Assembly: GCA_023386515.1 (NCBI GenBank)
Contig: JAEWJQ010000017.1
Coordinates: 1 to 5,393, forward strand
Length of the DNA: 5,393 nucleotides
Direction of reading: 5' to 3'
DNA from: Pseudomonadota bacterium
Lineage (GTDB): Bacteria > Pseudomonadota > Alphaproteobacteria > Sphingomonadales > Sphingomonadaceae
The notes beneath the pieces are model-generated. The model made no database searches and was not told the DNA's origin. It was given only the letters and a program-made list of their open reading frames with translations. A program made the translations under genes and the position numbers. This document shows, piece by piece, positions 1 to 5,393 of the stretch. How positions within the stretch are numbered: position 1 is the first letter of the stretch; each line of letters starts with the position of its first letter.

Positions 1-34
1 AAGACAGTGCTCTACCAGGCTGAGCTACTCCCCG
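1..34 (-). tRNA. tRNA-Pro (probable), 5' half only, cut by the window edge
   Basis: Read on the minus strand from position 34, the sequence gives a 7-base acceptor strand CGGGGAG, then TA at tRNA positions 8-9, a D-stem GCTC closed by GAGC around the loop AGCCTGGTA, A26, the anticodon-stem strand CTGTC and the loop bases TT. The anticodon itself lies just past base 1, outside the window. The first base is C, which among bacterial elongator tRNAs is characteristic of tRNA-Pro (C1-G72), and the D-arm GCCTGG is typical of tRNA-Pro too. The proline assignment is therefore an inference, while the tRNA call is direct. The gene points out of the window, so its promoter must lie to the right, within the pnuC leader region. 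Confidence 0.88.
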
Positions 35-83
35 ACGGAGCCCGGTCGTCAGCTTTCGGGAGCCGGCCGGATCGCTTGGAGGC

Positions 84-105
84 GCGGCGATACGCCGCCT
101 TTTTT
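84..105 (+). terminator. Intrinsic terminator-like hairpin with T-tract, upstream of pnuC
   Basis: GCGGCG (84-89) pairs perfectly with CGCCGC (93-98) around the loop ATA. One C follows, then six T (100-105). This is a canonical Rho-independent terminator on the plus strand. No plus-strand gene is visible upstream, because the tRNA is on the other strand. It may end a transcript entering from left of the window, or act as an attenuator in the pnuC leader, 63 bases before the chosen start codon. Confidence 0.65.
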
Positions 106-145
106 CGGGATGCAAGCACCGAAGATAGGCTCTTGCGAAATCCCG
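106..145 (+). promoter_or_regulatory. Bulged stem-loop in the pnuC leader
   Basis: CGGGAT (106-111) pairs with ATCCCG (140-145), and directly inside it GCAAG (112-116) pairs with CTTGC (132-136). Three unpaired bases, GAA (137-139), form a one-sided bulge, and the apical loop is 15 bases (117-131). It begins immediately after the T-tract of the preceding hairpin and ends 23 bases before the chosen pnuC start. Eleven perfect pairs with one bulge suggest an RNA structure more than a protein site, but I do not recognise a known riboswitch class. Confidence 0.4.
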
Positions 146-168
146 CCCGCCGCCTAGGCATCGACGAT

Positions 169-744
169 GTGAACCCGGTCGAACTCTGTGCCGCTGCACT
201 GGTCGTGATCAATGTCGTGCTGGTCGCGCGGCGCAGCGTCTGGAACTATCCGGTCGCGCTGGCCGCGGTCGCCATCTACGGCTGGGTGTTCGCCGGCGCG
301 CGGCTGTACAGCGACGCGTTGCTGCAAGGGTTCTTCTTCGCCGCCAACCTCTACGGCTGGAGCAACTGGGCGCGCAGCCGCGCCGCTGCGGGCGAGGTGA
401 TGGTCGAGCGCCTGTCGGACGGTGCGCGTATCGGCTGGGTCGCCGCAGGTCTGGTCGCCACCCTGTTGTGGGGGACGCTGATGCATCGCTTCACCGACGC
501 CTCTTATCCATGGTGGGACGCGGGGCTGGCGATCACTTCGGTGATCGCGCAATGGCTGCAGGCGCGGCGCGCGATCGAAAGCTGGTGGCTGTGGATCGCG
601 GTCGATTGCGGCTCGGTGCCGCTCTACCTGGCCAAGGGGCTGTGGGTCACCGCCGCCCTGTACGCGCTGCTGCTGGCGATCGCCGCCGCCGGCCTGATCG
701 AATGGAGCCGCGCGCGCGGCCGGCAGCATATGGTGCCGGCATGA
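169..744 (+). CDS. pnuC: PnuC-family nicotinamide riboside transporter
   Basis: This is an inner-membrane protein of 191 residues, close to the usual PnuC size, which takes up nicotinamide riboside by facilitated diffusion; a cytoplasmic kinase then traps the substrate. The protein is strongly hydrophobic, with segments near residues 5-20, 28-45, 50-67, 88-105, 115-130, 140-155 and 158-177. Family-type residues are visible: Q53, N60 and the LYGWSNW stretch (61-67) in the first half, then D117, Q128, R133, E137, W139, W142, Y153 and K156 in the second. The GTG at 169 is chosen because the protein then begins NPVELCAAA directly before the first helix, as in relatives. No strong ribosome-binding site is visible, and the frame stays open upstream into the tRNA, so the start is uncertain. 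The stop overlaps the next start as ATGA, implying a translationally coupled operon with the NadR-type kinase. Confidence 0.88.
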   Translation: MNPVELCAAALVVINVVLVARRSVWNYPVALAAVAIYGWVFAGARLYSDALLQGFFFAANLYGWSNWARSRAAAGEVMVERLSDGARIGWVAAGLVATLLWGTLMHRFTDASYPWWDAGLAITSVIAQWLQARRAIESWWLWIAVDCGSVPLYLAKGLWVTAALYALLLAIAAAGLIEWSRARGRQHMVPA

Positions 745-1295
745 AGCCGCGGTCGATCTGCTTGCACGGGCCGGAAAGTACCGGCAAATCGACGCTCGGC
801 GCCCGGCTGGCGCGGCATTTCGACACGCCGCTCGTCGACGAATTCGGCCGGACCTATTGCGAGCGGTTCGGTACCGACCTGACGATGGCCGATCTGGTCG
901 AGATCGGTAAGGGCCATGATGCCAAGGTCCGTGCGGCGCTGGCCGGGCGCAACTTCCCGGTCATCGTCGACACCGACCCGCTGATGACCGCGGTCTGGGC
1001 GGACATGATGTTCGGCCGGCGCGATGCCTGGTTCTCGACCTGGAACAACACCGCCGACATCTACCTGCTGTTCGACATCGACCTGCCCTGGGTCGACGAC
1101 GGCACCCGCATGTTCGGCAGCGCCGCCGAGCGCCAGCGGTTCTTCGACCTGTCGCGCCGCGAACTCGACCGGCGGCGTGTGCGCTGGGCGATGGTCAGCG
1201 GCGAGGGGAGCCGGCGGTACCTCAACGCGCTGGAGGCGATCCGCCGGCTGTCCGAAGGTGAGGACGGGCCCGATGGGCCCGTCAGTGGACGATGA
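741..1295 (+). CDS. NadR-type ribosylnicotinamide kinase (P-loop ATPase), stand-alone
   Basis: This 184-residue cytoplasmic P-loop protein resembles the C-terminal kinase domain of NadR, which phosphorylates nicotinamide riboside to NMN with ATP. Visible motifs are a Walker A loop GPESTGKST (10-18), a VDEFGRTY substrate-site motif (32-39), a DTDP Walker-B-like motif (77-80), and the segment FDIDLPWVDDGTR (111-123), matching the family's lid region. The helix-turn-helix and adenylyltransferase domains of enterobacterial NadR are absent, so it should be neither a repressor nor an NMN adenylyltransferase; NadD or a similar enzyme encoded elsewhere would finish NAD synthesis. The ATG at 741 overlaps the pnuC stop (ATGA), and this pairing with the transporter is the main support for the substrate. 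The 3' end overlaps the convergent gene by 14 bases. Databases may label it simply AAA family ATPase. Confidence 0.85.
   Translation: MKPRSICLHGPESTGKSTLGARLARHFDTPLVDEFGRTYCERFGTDLTMADLVEIGKGHDAKVRAALAGRNFPVIVDTDPLMTAVWADMMFGRRDAWFSTWNNTADIYLLFDIDLPWVDDGTRMFGSAAERQRFFDLSRRELDRRRVRWAMVSGEGSRRYLNALEAIRRLSEGEDGPDGPVSGR
1263..1283. terminator. Perfect hairpin inside the overlapping convergent gene ends
   Basis: GACGGGCCC (1263-1271) pairs with GGGCCCGTC (1275-1283) around the loop GAT, giving a 9-bp GC-rich stem. It lies in the last codons of the kinase gene and reaches into the stop codon of the minus-strand gene (1282-1284). Neither side has a T-tract, so it would be a non-canonical bidirectional terminator or an RNA 3'-end stabiliser. 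That role is inferred from position and symmetry only. Confidence 0.45.
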
Positions 1296-2283
1296 GCACG
1301 GGCACGCCCTGATCGGGCTGCGCCGTCGGCGCGAGCTTGGTGTTGAGCACCCAGCCCACGTTGTCGTTCTCGTCGGCGACCTCCCACCACAGCCCGTCCT
1401 TGTTGCCGGTCGGATAGACGATCGCCCCCTTCGGCAGTGTGCGCAGCGTCTTGGCGCTGGCGGAGGCGGTGGCATGGAGCGTCAGCGGCGCCTGCACGGT
1501 GAAGGTCTTCGCCGGTGCGGCCTGGGCGGTGCCCGCATCGCCCGGCTTGACCAGACCGAGGCCGGTGACGAGCTTGCCATAGGCCTGGATGAAGGAGAGG
1601 GTGATGACCCGGCCGATGTCGGTGTTGTCATAGCCGCCGCCGATGCCGCCCGCCAGGCCGACGAAGCCGGAGGCGCCGAACGACAGGTCCTTTTTGGCGG
1701 CATAGCCCTCTTCGGTCGCCAGCGTCTCGGTGGTGCGGACGTTGGTCAGCGACAGGACGGTGTTCGCCTCCAGCTTCTTGCTCTTGATGCCGCCGAGCAG
1801 CCCGCCGATCGTCCCGCCGAGCACCGCGCCGACGCCGCCGGCGACGGCATTGCCGCTGACATTGGCGTTGGCGTCCTGCACCTCGGCGACCAGCACATAG
1901 TCGGCCGCCTTGATCTGGCCCTGACCGGTGTTCGAGCCGCGCTGCAGGCCGAGGTCGGTGCCGATCGACCGCTCGCGCTGGGCGGCGCTGAGGCCGCTGC
2001 CGCGATCGACGAGGTTGAAGCAGCCCGACCGCTGGACCAGGACCTTGAGCAGCTTGGAGGGTGGCGCCAGGCTCCACTTGGTCCAGGTCGGATCATCGCC
2101 ATCGACGATCGACAGGGTGCCAAGCTTTCGGGCGCAATGCGGCACGTCGCGGGCGGTCTGTTCCTGCAGGCGCTGCCCGCTCGACGGCTTGGCGAGCTTC
2201 TGCGCCTCGACCGGCGCGGCCAGGGTAAGGGCCGTGCTGGCGAGCAGCGCCAGTGCGGCGCGCGCGGATTTGGACTGGGTCAT
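1282..2283 (-). CDS. CsgG-family exported protein with C-terminal SH3-like domain
   Basis: The product has 333 residues. Residues 1-27 are a Sec-type signal peptide (K5 and R8, then a hydrophobic core, predicted cleavage VEA|Q). Residues 45-243 resemble CsgG, the outer-membrane curli secretion pore family that also includes HfaB: SKLLKVLVQRSGCFNLVDR (76-94), ADYVLVAEVQD (127-137), VLSLTNVRTTETLATEEGYA (176-195) and the final helix VITLSFIQAYGKLV (226-239). A glycine-rich stretch (144-166) and another (203-217) lie where CsgG builds its membrane hairpins. Residues 261-319 look like a bacterial SH3 domain (TLHATASASAKTLRTLPKG, then GLWWEVADENDNVGWV). There is no lipobox cysteine at the cleavage site, unlike CsgG itself. 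No curli-type genes are nearby, so the transported or bound partner is unknown. The ATG at 2283 is supported by a GGAGGAAGGAGA stretch (2289-2300). Confidence 0.8.
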   Translation of the reverse strand: MTQSKSARAALALLASTALTLAAPVEAQKLAKPSSGQRLQEQTARDVPHCARKLGTLSIVDGDDPTWTKWSLAPPSKLLKVLVQRSGCFNLVDRGSGLSAAQRERSIGTDLGLQRGSNTGQGQIKAADYVLVAEVQDANANVSGNAVAGGVGAVLGGTIGGLLGGIKSKKLEANTVLSLTNVRTTETLATEEGYAAKKDLSFGASGFVGLAGGIGGGYDNTDIGRVITLSFIQAYGKLVTGLGLVKPGDAGTAQAAPAKTFTVQAPLTLHATASASAKTLRTLPKGAIVYPTGNKDGLWWEVADENDNVGWVLNTKLAPTAQPDQGVPVLIVH

Positions 2284-2288
2284 TGTCG

Positions 2289-2300
2289 TCTCCTTCCTCC
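2289..2300 (-). promoter_or_regulatory. Ribosome-binding site of the CsgG-family gene
   Basis: On the minus strand GGAGGAAGGAGA precedes the ATG at 2283 by five bases. This strong purine-rich match fixes the start and rules out the much longer open frame that continues upstream, antisense to lepA. Confidence 0.75.
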
Positions 2301-2325
2301 CGATCGGCGCGCCCCCGCGCCTTTG

Positions 2326-2338
2326 GTCGATTATCGAC
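2326..2338. promoter_or_regulatory. Inverted repeat in the divergent intergenic region
   Basis: GTCGAT-T-ATCGAC is a perfect 6-base inverted repeat with one central base. It sits about midway between the divergent starts of the CsgG-family gene (2283) and lepA (2419), in the AT-rich part of the spacer next to TATAGA (2340-2345). Position and symmetry fit an operator for a dimeric regulator or promoter-associated DNA. I could not assign convincing -35/-10 pairs on either strand. Confidence 0.3.
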
Positions 2339-2418
2339 ATATAGACCGGATAGAGACACTTTCGTGACGGCGGGGACGGCTGGCGCTCGGCGGGCGAGTG
2401 CGCTAGGTCGCGCCGATC

Positions 2419-4230
2419 ATGGCAACCCCGCTCAAGTCCATCCGAAACTTCTCGATCATCGCGCATATCGACCACGGCAAGTCGACGCTGGCCGACCGGC
2501 TGATACAAAGGACAGGAGGGCTGTCCGATCGTGAGATGTCGAGCCAGGTCCTCGACAATATGGACATCGAGAAGGAGCGCGGCATCACGATCAAGGCGCA
2601 GACCGTGCGCCTGTCGTACACCGCCAAGGACGGCGAGACCTATACGCTGAACCTGATGGACACCCCAGGCCACGTCGACTTCGCCTATGAGGTCAGCCGC
2701 ATCCTCGCCGCCTGCGAGGGCGCGCTGCTGGTCGTCGATGCGGCGCAGGGGGTCGAGGCCCAGACGCTCGCCAACGTCTATCAGTCGATCGAGCACGACC
2801 ATGAGATCGTGCCGGTGATCAACAAGATCGACCTGCCCGCCGCCGAGCCGGAGATGGTCCGCAAGGAGATCGAGGACGTGATCGGCCTCGACGCGTCCGA
2901 GGCGGTGCTGGCCAGCGCCAAATCGGGGATCGGCATCGACGAGATCCTGGAGGCGATCGTCACCAAGATCCCGGCGCCCCAGGGCGATCCGGACGCGCCG
3001 CTGAAGGCGATGCTGGTCGACAGCTGGTATGACCCCTATCTGGGCGTCGTCATCCTGGTGCGCGTCATGGACGGCGTGCTGAAGAAGGGGCAGCAGGTCA
3101 CCTTCATGCAGGCCGGCACGCAGCATCTGGTCGATCGCGTCGGCTGCTTCCGGCCGAAGATCGAGCAGCTGACCGACCTGGGGCCGGGCGAGATCGGCTT
3201 CATCACCGCGCAGATCAAGGACGTCGCACAGGCGCGCGTCGGCGACACGCTGACCGACGCGAAGAAGCCCGCCGCCGAGGCGCTGCCCGGGTTCAAGGAA
3301 GTGCAGCCAGTCGTGTTCTGCGGGCTTTTTCCCGTCGATGCCAATGACTTCGAGAAGCTTCGTGAGAGCATTTCGAAGCTTCGTCTGAACGACGCCAGCT
3401 TCTCGTTCGAGATGGAAACCTCGGCCGCTTTGGGCTTCGGCTTCCGCTGCGGCTTCCTCGGGCTGCTGCACCTCGAGATCATCCAGGAGCGGCTGACCCG
3501 CGAATACGACCTCGACCTGATCACTACCGCGCCCTCGGTGGTCTATCAGATCGAGCTGACTCACGGTGGCGGCCATATCGAGCTGCACAATCCGGCCGAC
3601 ATGCCCGATCCCAACAAGATCGAGAGCATCAGCGAGCCGTGGATCGAGGCGACGATCTACGTTCCCGACGAATAACTCGGCTCGATTCTCAAGCTGTGCC
3701 AGGACCGGCGCGGCATCCAGAAGAACCTGACCTATGTCGGCGGGCGCGCGCAGGCGACCTACGAACTGCCGCTCAACGAAGTGGTGTTCGACTTCTACGA
3801 CCGGCTGAAATCACTGTCGAAGGGTTATGCCAGCTTCGACTATCACCTGATCGGCTATCGCGAGGGTGACCTCGTCAAGATGAGCATCCTGGTCAACGAG
3901 GAACCGGTCGACGCGCTGAGCATGATCGTCCACCGCGGCACCGCCGAAGTGCGCGGCCGCGGCATGTGCGAGCGGCTGAAGGAACTGATCCCCAGGCACC
4001 TGTTCAAAATCCCGATCCAGGCGGCGATCGGCGGCAAGGTGATCGCGCGCGAGACGATCAGCGCGATGCGCAAGGACGTCACCGCCAAATGCTATGGCGG
4101 CGACGCGACTCGTAAGCGCAAGCTGCTGGAAAAGCAGAAGAAGGGTAAGCTGAAGATGCGCGAATACGGCAGCGTCAGCATCCCGCAGGAAGCGTTCATC
4201 GCCGCGCTGCGCATGGGCGACGAGGGGTAG
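2419..4230 (+). pseudogene. lepA: lepA, elongation factor 4, interrupted by an in-frame TAA at codon 419
   Basis: LepA (EF4) is a ribosome-associated translational GTPase. All GTPase motifs are present: AHIDHGKST (15-23), RGIT (54-57), DTPGH (81-85), NKID (135-138) and SAKSG (166-170). Domains II and III follow, including [10 protein letters not shown] and the [16 protein letters not shown] region. At 3673-3675 the codon is TAA where relatives have Tyr in the motif (D/K)EYLG, the start of the EF-G domain V-like part. The same frame then continues without any other stop or frameshift through [33 protein letters not shown] and CYGGD to TAG at 4228-4230, giving 603 codons, the normal family length. 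As written, only 418 residues are made, lacking domain V and the LepA-specific C-terminal domain. One base change from TAC (or TAT) explains it; a sequencing error is possible. The ATG at 2419 matches the usual N-terminus, and an in-frame TAG at 2404 excludes an earlier start. No strong ribosome-binding site is visible. Confidence 0.93.
3673..3675 (+). other. lepA: Premature TAA stop in lepA
   Basis: The codons around it read GTT CCC GAC GAA TAA CTC GGC, that is VPDE-stop-LG, where the conserved reading is VPDEYLG. The next base is C. The first in-frame start-type codons afterwards are GTG at 3781 and 3784, with no visible ribosome-binding site, so reinitiation to make the C-terminal part looks poor. 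Confidence 0.95.
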
Positions 4231-4280
4231 GATTGTCCCTCGGGCCTATGGCTCCGATAGAGAAGGGCGTCGACACCGGC

Positions 4281-4300
4281 GCTTCGCCACGTGGCGAAGC
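4281..4300 (+). terminator. 20-base perfect palindrome after lepA, likely terminator hairpin
   Basis: GCTTCGCCAC (4281-4290) is followed directly by its reverse complement GTGGCGAAGC (4291-4300). As RNA it would fold into an 8-bp stem with the loop ACGT, 50 bases after the lepA TAG. What follows is CCCTCTC, not a T-tract, so termination would be non-canonical. The symmetry also allows a protein-binding site. Confidence 0.45.
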
Positions 4301-4314
4301 CCCTCTCATCAGCG

Positions 4315-4337
4315 CCGACGCGCCGGAACCGCGTCGG
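4315..4337. repeat. Inverted repeat, second hairpin of the convergent spacer
   Basis: CCGACGCG (4315-4322) pairs with CGCGTCGG (4330-4337) around a 7-base loop. It lies between the two other hairpins in the spacer separating lepA from the convergent minus-strand gene. There is no T-tract on either side. Confidence 0.4.
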
Positions 4338-4352
4338 GATGTAGCAGACGAG

Positions 4353-4370
4353 GCGCCCCGGCTGGGGCGC
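4353..4370 (-). terminator. Hairpin just after the small exported-protein gene
   Basis: GCGCCCC (4353-4359) pairs with GGGGCGC (4364-4370) around a 4-base loop. It lies five bases past the stop codon of the minus-strand gene (4376-4378), the expected place for its transcription terminator. The downstream tail on that strand (CTCGTCT) is only weakly T-rich. Confidence 0.5.
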
Positions 4371-4375
4371 AACGC

Positions 4376-4831
4376 TCACATATAGTTCTGCGGATCCGGG
4401 CTCGGCATGTTGCAGGCGCGGGTGTGGCCGCGCTTGCAGGCGGCGACCTGCGCGCGCCAGTCGGCCATCGCCATCGCATAGGCCCGTTCGCGATCGGCCT
4501 GCAATGCGGCATCGGCGGCCGCGATCCGGCGGTTCATCCGCATCGATGCGCGATAGCGGCGCAGATCGGCCTGATATTCTGCGCTGTTCGCCAGATTCAC
4601 GGCGGTGGCGGCGTCTGCCTGCACCTGCGCCTGGACGGCGGATTGCTGGTTGGCGGCGGCAACCCCCGGGGCGGTCTGCGCGGCGATGGCATTGCTGCGC
4701 GCCGAATTGCTATCGTGGCCGGGATCGTAGGGCAGCGGCATGCTCGGCTGGTCGGCGGGATTGGCGGTCTGTGTCTGGGCGGCGACGGGGGCGGCGACCA
4801 GCAGCGCGCCGAGGATGAGCGGACGGAACAT
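4376..4831 (-). CDS. Small exported protein of unknown function with two C-terminal cysteines
   Basis: I do not recognise a named family for this 151-residue protein. Residues 1-18 form a clear Sec signal peptide (R3, hydrophobic core, VAA|Q cleavage), so the product is probably periplasmic. A Pro-containing linker (25-38) is followed by a long Ala/Gln/Arg-rich stretch, predicted helical, from about 44 to 131. Near the end, C132 and C140 in the pattern CKRGHTRAC could form a disulfide, followed by a short Pro-rich tail ending PQNYM. Similar small proteins with a WR..V..C end are, from memory, common as hypothetical proteins in sphingomonads. The ATG at 4831 is supported by GAGGAG nine bases upstream (4841-4846). 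The longer frame on to 4930 would lose the signal peptide at the N-terminus and is rejected. The gene lies 79 bases downstream of another small minus-strand gene, so co-transcription is possible. Confidence 0.72.
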   Translation of the reverse strand: MFRPLILGALLVAAPVAAQTQTANPADQPSMPLPYDPGHDSNSARSNAIAAQTAPGVAAANQQSAVQAQVQADAATAVNLANSAEYQADLRRYRASMRMNRRIAAADAALQADRERAYAMAMADWRAQVAACKRGHTRACNMPSPDPQNYM

Positions 4832-4840
4832 GGGCGAATA

Positions 4841-4846
4841 CTCCTC
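4841..4846 (-). promoter_or_regulatory. Ribosome-binding site of the small exported-protein gene
   Basis: GAGGAG on the minus strand lies nine bases before the ATG at 4831. It selects this start over the upstream in-frame alternative, in agreement with the signal peptide that begins here. Confidence 0.6.
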
Positions 4847-4910
4847 GCTATGATGGGCGGGAGAATGACCGGGACGGGGAGTGGTTCCGATCCGGAGTGA
4901 ATCGAGGCCT

Positions 4911-5198
4911 TTAGAACCGGGCTGCGGCAAGCACGCGGTAATCGGATCGCTGCATCGTCACGCGGACGCCATGGCCATCCTCCTTTCGCGTGATCCGCGC
5001 GATCAACCTTTTCCCCTCAGCCCGCGCACCGAAGGTGAAGCTCGTCACCGTCGTGCAATTTATCGCGAACACCCGGTTCGCGATCGGCCGCGCGATGCTG
5101 ATCGCCCGGAGCGATTCGGCTTCGGTGATGCGCGGTTCGGCCGACTCGCTCGCGGGCAAGCCGGATAAAGCGACCATCGCCGCAGCCCATGCCAACAT
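4911..5198 (-). CDS. Small membrane-anchored or exported protein of unknown function; start uncertain, may extend past the window
   Basis: From the ATG at 5198 the frame gives 95 residues: a hydrophobic N-terminal segment (1-15, LAWAAAMVALSG), a possible cleavage at SESA|E, then about 75 residues with one Cys, an alternating TTVTSFTFGAR stretch suggestive of beta structure, and a basic C-terminal part ending in Phe. No family is recognised. A G-rich stretch, GGGGGA, lies six bases upstream of the ATG; a GTG at 5201 is the other option. Against this start, the hydrophobic segment lacks the usual positive N-terminal residues, while the in-frame codons just upstream read FIRRGGFV, and the frame has no stop up to the window end at 5393. 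The real gene may thus be longer, with a Pro/Arg-rich cytoplasmic tail and a single membrane helix, starting outside. Codon choice in the 4911-5198 part is G/C-rich at third positions, like neighbouring genes. Confidence 0.55.
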   Translation of the reverse strand: MLAWAAAMVALSGLPASESAEPRITEAESLRAISIARPIANRVFAINCTTVTSFTFGARAEGKRLIARITRKEDGHGVRVTMQRSDYRVLAAARF

Positions 5199-5393
5199 CA
5201 CAAATCCCCCGCGCCGAATGAACGCCTCTAATGGTTTATAGCTGGCGTCACGGTGCCGGGCTTCATGCGAGCCGGCGTTTCCCGGCCGAGGATCGTAGCG
5301 GTCGACGGCGCGCCTGGGGCCGGGAGGTGCTGGGGGATATTCGCGGGGCGGCGGAGCTGCGGCCGTGCTCGCGCGTGTCGTTCGAGCCTCAGC

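Follow-up and report, generated by a model that had tools for sequence, protein, structure and literature searches.

An in-frame TAA at codon 419 of lepA in a short Sphingomonadaceae contig: most likely a sequence error, otherwise a recent null allele

The window, i.e. the whole stretch of 5,393 nucleotides analysed here, comes from a Sphingomonas-like organism and carries lepA, which encodes elongation factor 4 (LepA/EF4), on its plus strand (Table 1). The TAA at codon 419 reported in the first-pass annotation was borne out by the reading frame and is the only internal stop of this gene. Upstream of lepA (positions 169-1295), a gene for an NMN transporter (PF04973) runs into the beginning of an AAA_28 ATPase gene, which we take to be nadR-like, and the two are likely to form a NAD-salvage pair beside lepA. 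A csgG/SH3-like gene (csgG-like in the following) lies at 1285-2283 on the minus strand. It is open in the window, whereas its counterpart in G189, the nearest whole genome found in the genus (with 37 of the 295 genomes unscored), contains an in-frame TGA at codon 67 (loci L111 and L144). The window seems to start inside a tRNA gene (1-34): ARAGORN finds no tRNA in the window, but the corresponding part of G189 (L144, 1441-1517, minus strand) holds a tRNA-Pro (cgg).

Table 1. Features of the window that bear on the interrupted lepA frame.
Feature	Position	Strand	Description and basis
lepA (elongation factor 4) frame	2419..4230	+	603 codons, TAA at codon 419, closing TAG; ORFs, relatives, Pfam
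In-frame TAA, codon 419	3673..3675	+	In the first part of domain V (PF00679; 404-488 in the intact protein P0001)
Codon 95 of lepA	2701..2703	+	Private replacement at a near-invariant GTPase-domain site; comparison with P0001-P0003 and scored rows
Codon 477 of lepA	3847..3849	+	Private replacement relative to P0001-P0003; alignment of proteins and loci
Downstream in-frame ORF	3781..4230	+	GTG start, 149 aa, LepA_C; ORF list, Pfam
Codon 96 of nadR-like gene	1026..1028	+	Private replacement; all scored distinct relatives (44 of 44) have another residue in common

The domain order of an intact LepA was taken from P0001, a protein of 603 residues that is encoded on three public contigs (the longest comprising 7374 bases) and aligns with E. 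coli LepA (PDB 3cb4) over residues 5-601. GTP_EFTU, domain 2, domain III, EFG_C (domain V) and LepA_C (residues 492-597) are all present in this protein and follow each other in this order. In the window, the same set of domains is divided by the stop. Pfam assigns GTP_EFTU, EF-Tu domain 2 and EF-G domain III to residues 1-418, and LepA_C, together with the end of EFG_C (the latter below the cut-off), to the ORF starting at 3781, so that the initial description of a GTPase part before the stop and C-terminal motifs after it proved accurate. No single ORF runs through domain V and LepA_C, and because of the TAA the window copy as written would not yield a full LepA. Given the extent of domain V in P0001, the stop falls early in this domain. 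The predicted 418-residue product would thus retain domains I-III and lose the whole C-terminal domain, but the loss would not be limited to the family-specific part, since most of domain V would be missing as well; such a product would probably be non-functional or degraded. No protein of 418 residues was found among the 120 matches listed for this query.

For comparison with relatives, genome contigs were scanned and the best 80 loci were taken. Position 419 is a sense codon in all 80 of them, specifying tyrosine in 76, histidine in 2 and phenylalanine in 2 cases, and a sense codon, nearly always for tyrosine, is likewise present throughout an enlarged set of 140 loci, corresponding to 123 distinct lepA DNA copies (123/123). 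Among 143 database proteins, 142 have a tyrosine at this position and the remaining one does not cover the site. Inspection of codon 419 in relatives, which had been suggested together with the original observation, therefore revealed a stop that is not shared. LepA appears to be single-copy in the genus, with one match at E <= 1e-200 in 292 of 295 genomes. A lepA-internal stop was reported for none of 158 of these 295 genomes (150 + 8 rows), the last 8 not being full tests: in five of them the copy is cut or split, by contig ends in G156, G201, G203 and G260 and by a run of N in G154; G174 has no more than a fragment of 84 residues at the end of a contig; and the matches in G150 and G237 reach 34-37% identity only. 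A plasmid-borne copy was considered and rejected, the best of the 13 plasmid records matching lepA reaching 87%. A 27-base pattern spanning the stop gave no match in viral_contigs, and the literature matches listed, a good part of them apparently owing to a different word, included no relevant report on a lepA nonsense mutation or on lepA of Sphingomonas.

Among the best 80 loci, a single other internal nonsense codon was observed, at codon 460 of lepA on a 4627-base contig of a Sphingomonas metagenome-assembled genome (L031). This gene resembles that of the window in having a single internal stop on a short metagenome contig, but differs from it in the position of the stop and encodes a LepA that is 86% identical.

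The closest proteins available, all of them LepA/EF4 of Sphingomonas with the same length and domains, differ from the window at 3 (P0001), 5 (P0002) and 6 (P0003) positions. At the protein level, the only differences between the window frame and P0001 are located at positions 95, 419 and 477, where the residues of P0001 are also those of P0002 and P0003 (603 aa each; source names Sphingomonas sp. XXL09 and MA1305), so that the window has two further private replacements in addition to the TAA. The frame had been described as free of a second lesion, which is correct insofar as it contains no other internal stop and no indel, but does not extend to the replacements at codons 95 and 477. Position 95 is occupied by one and the same residue, against the window, in 264 of 265 scored rows. 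At position 477, the 142 scored database proteins all share a residue other than that of the window, whereas the residue of the window is found in 13 of the 123 distinct loci, all of which are just 74.6-77.4% identical to the window LepA; the change at codon 477 is therefore not alarming by itself and, going by these distant copies, may be harmless and real. A further private replacement lies at codon 96 of the nadR-like gene. Comparable sites were found neither in pnuC (31 distinct relatives) nor in the csgG-like gene (138) or the ORF at 4379-4840 (9), and the ORF at 4914-5201 has too few relatives for scoring.

The private changes in lepA are distributed as unselected changes would be. Of all possible single-base changes in the frame, 76% alter the protein, and 59% of the protein-changing ones would be private at a column that is at least 97% conserved; two of the three private lepA changes fall on such columns. 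A baseline was obtained from 158 other distinct LepA rows that are at least 88% identical to the window: such sites are absent from 144 of them, while 12 carry a single one and 2 carry two, compared with two in the window. More distant rows have more of them (8 with two and 8 with three to eight sites among 227 distinct rows overall). The window is thus unusual, but not unique, in its number of private sites, and an earlier, partly redundant baseline, in which redundancy hides private residues, gave the same picture. All four private changes in lepA and the nadR-like gene are transversions, as opposed to 109 of the 289 differences from G189. This spectrum is compatible with error, but it is too small to be given weight, because TAA arises from a tyrosine codon only by transversion and four cases are few.

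G189 is 95% identical to the window over positions 1-4231 and has the same gene order. The only gap in this alignment is located at 2311, outside lepA, which has no indel relative to G189. Within lepA, 71 synonymous codon differences and 6 amino-acid differences, including the stop, were counted. Three of the six are private; at the other three (171, 188 and 290), which are variable sites with none reaching 97% conservation, the window agrees with P0001. The dN/dS ratio amounts to 0.026 before and 0.009 after the stop, the underlying counts being not significantly different (Fisher p 0.64). Hence, the part after the stop was under full constraint almost to the present and there is no sign of a long decay of lepA in this comparison, so that the lesion is either very recent, an event to which this test is blind, or absent from the organism. 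A chimeric contig was ruled out as a source of the stop, as identity to G189 ranges from 0.93 to 0.98 per 200 bases over 1-5000 (with 4201-4400 not scored) and shows no switch at this site. Towards the end of the window, identity to G189 drops from 0.89 in 5001-5200 to about 0.75 in 5201-5393.

Taken together, the TAA is most likely an error and otherwise an ordinary recent null allele. We consider it probable that a base substitution was introduced into a short contig and that the organism most likely has an ordinary, intact and single-copy lepA. The stop would then have arisen during sequencing, amplification or consensus calling or from DNA damage, and the same process would also account for the private replacements in lepA (codons 95 and 477) and in the nadR-like gene (codon 96). 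We infer this technical source from the stop itself, its absence in all relatives examined, the existence of a near-identical intact copy, the further private changes and the constraint downstream. In a lineage so constrained, the last branch, traced here from P0001 at the protein level, would be expected to show hardly any replacements, yet there are three, including a stop; either selection was absent very recently or the organism itself does not carry these changes. The replacement in the nadR-like gene, at an invariant site outside lepA, weakly favours the latter, its weight being limited by the lack of a baseline for that gene. It is also in line with an error that the nonsense codon of L031, the sole further example in the set of 80 loci, likewise lies on a short metagenome contig. 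On the other hand, the decay of a dead lepA would be compatible with three changes in this gene as opposed to a single one in the remaining scored genes, and two of the 158 other rows equal the window in their number of private sites. Moreover, lepA has no indels and the four other ORFs tested are open (five translated, without an internal stop), which indicates that the contig is not grossly poor. The first-pass annotation had listed an error, a very recent null or truncation allele and, as the least likely case, readthrough; this list and its order hold, except that the stop is not the sole departure from the relatives. If the stop is an error, it serves as a warning only: suspect substitutions would amount to about one per kb of scored coding sequence (4 in about 3.9 kb), so that other single-base oddities of the contig should be distrusted.

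That one strain truly has a null or truncated lepA allele of very recent origin is the less probable, yet quite conceivable, alternative, and sequence comparison alone does not fully separate it from an error. Under such conditions, the changes at codons 95 and 477 would represent neutral decay, or that at codon 95, in the GTPase domain, could have been the first hit. The unselected appearance of the private changes is what would be expected after gene loss. Their density is higher in lepA (3) than in pnuC, the nadR-like and the csgG-like gene combined (1), although this is a weak comparison, with neighbours that are less conserved and scored without a P0001-like sister. Loss would be survivable to judge from E. 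coli, where deletion of lepA caused no obvious growth defect (PMC4245954). Truncated forms are known from the same species: a second study describes C-terminal truncation variants of EF4 at residues 494, 520 and 555, which lack the C-terminal domain in part or entirely; these variants still bound nucleotides, associated with ribosomes and showed intrinsic GTPase activity, but their KM in ribosome-stimulated GTP hydrolysis was at least 10-fold higher (PMC4339808). The earlier proposal that the short product would lose ribosome-specific contacts therefore does not simply apply to the C-terminal domain, even though that domain would indeed be absent. The E. coli variants resemble the window product in that the C-terminal end is missing and the GTPase domain retained; however, they are laboratory constructs, and none of the three is as short as the 418 residues of the window product, the shortest removing the C-terminal domain alone while the window product would end early in domain V. 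A strain could, on these data, perhaps live with the stop, and the short form itself would most likely do nothing. Against a null allele, loss of lepA leaves the change at the invariant site of the nadR-like gene unexplained, the downstream dN/dS of 0.009 requires any loss to be very recent, and none of the 158 genomes of the genus covered has a reported lepA-internal stop. If real, the allele would represent a naturally occurring loss or truncation of a gene that is strongly constrained in the relatives of this lineage, and would be useful for studying the role of LepA outside E. coli.

It is very improbable that the stop is real and suppressed or read through so that some full-length LepA is made. 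Past the stop, the frame stays open as far as its closing TAG and is constrained, but a very recent stop would give equal downstream constraint without any readthrough. A stop conserved among relatives, as would be expected for programmed readthrough, was not seen, and its absence from all 80 loci and all 123 distinct copies argues against a conserved recoding site; in addition, no Rfam RNA family was detected in the window at the gathering threshold. That a suppressor tRNA or strong readthrough would provide two forms of LepA, with the complete protein made alongside a GTPase core of 418 residues, is just as hard to credit. More doubtful still is a split LepA, with the C-terminal part made separately from a downstream start. 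The 149-aa ORF with its GTG at 3781 does contain LepA_C, yet it starts inside domain V and is not preceded by a Shine-Dalgarno-like sequence (by eye), and the cut or split lepA copies in five genomes of the genus are due to contig ends or a run of N rather than to gene fissions. In two of these assemblies, the sequence breaks off or turns to N directly after lepA codon 431 (L141 in G154, contig C39, and L142 in G260, contig C218), in a conserved stretch shortly past the position of the stop in the window; conserved lepA DNA may thus be a break point in assemblies.
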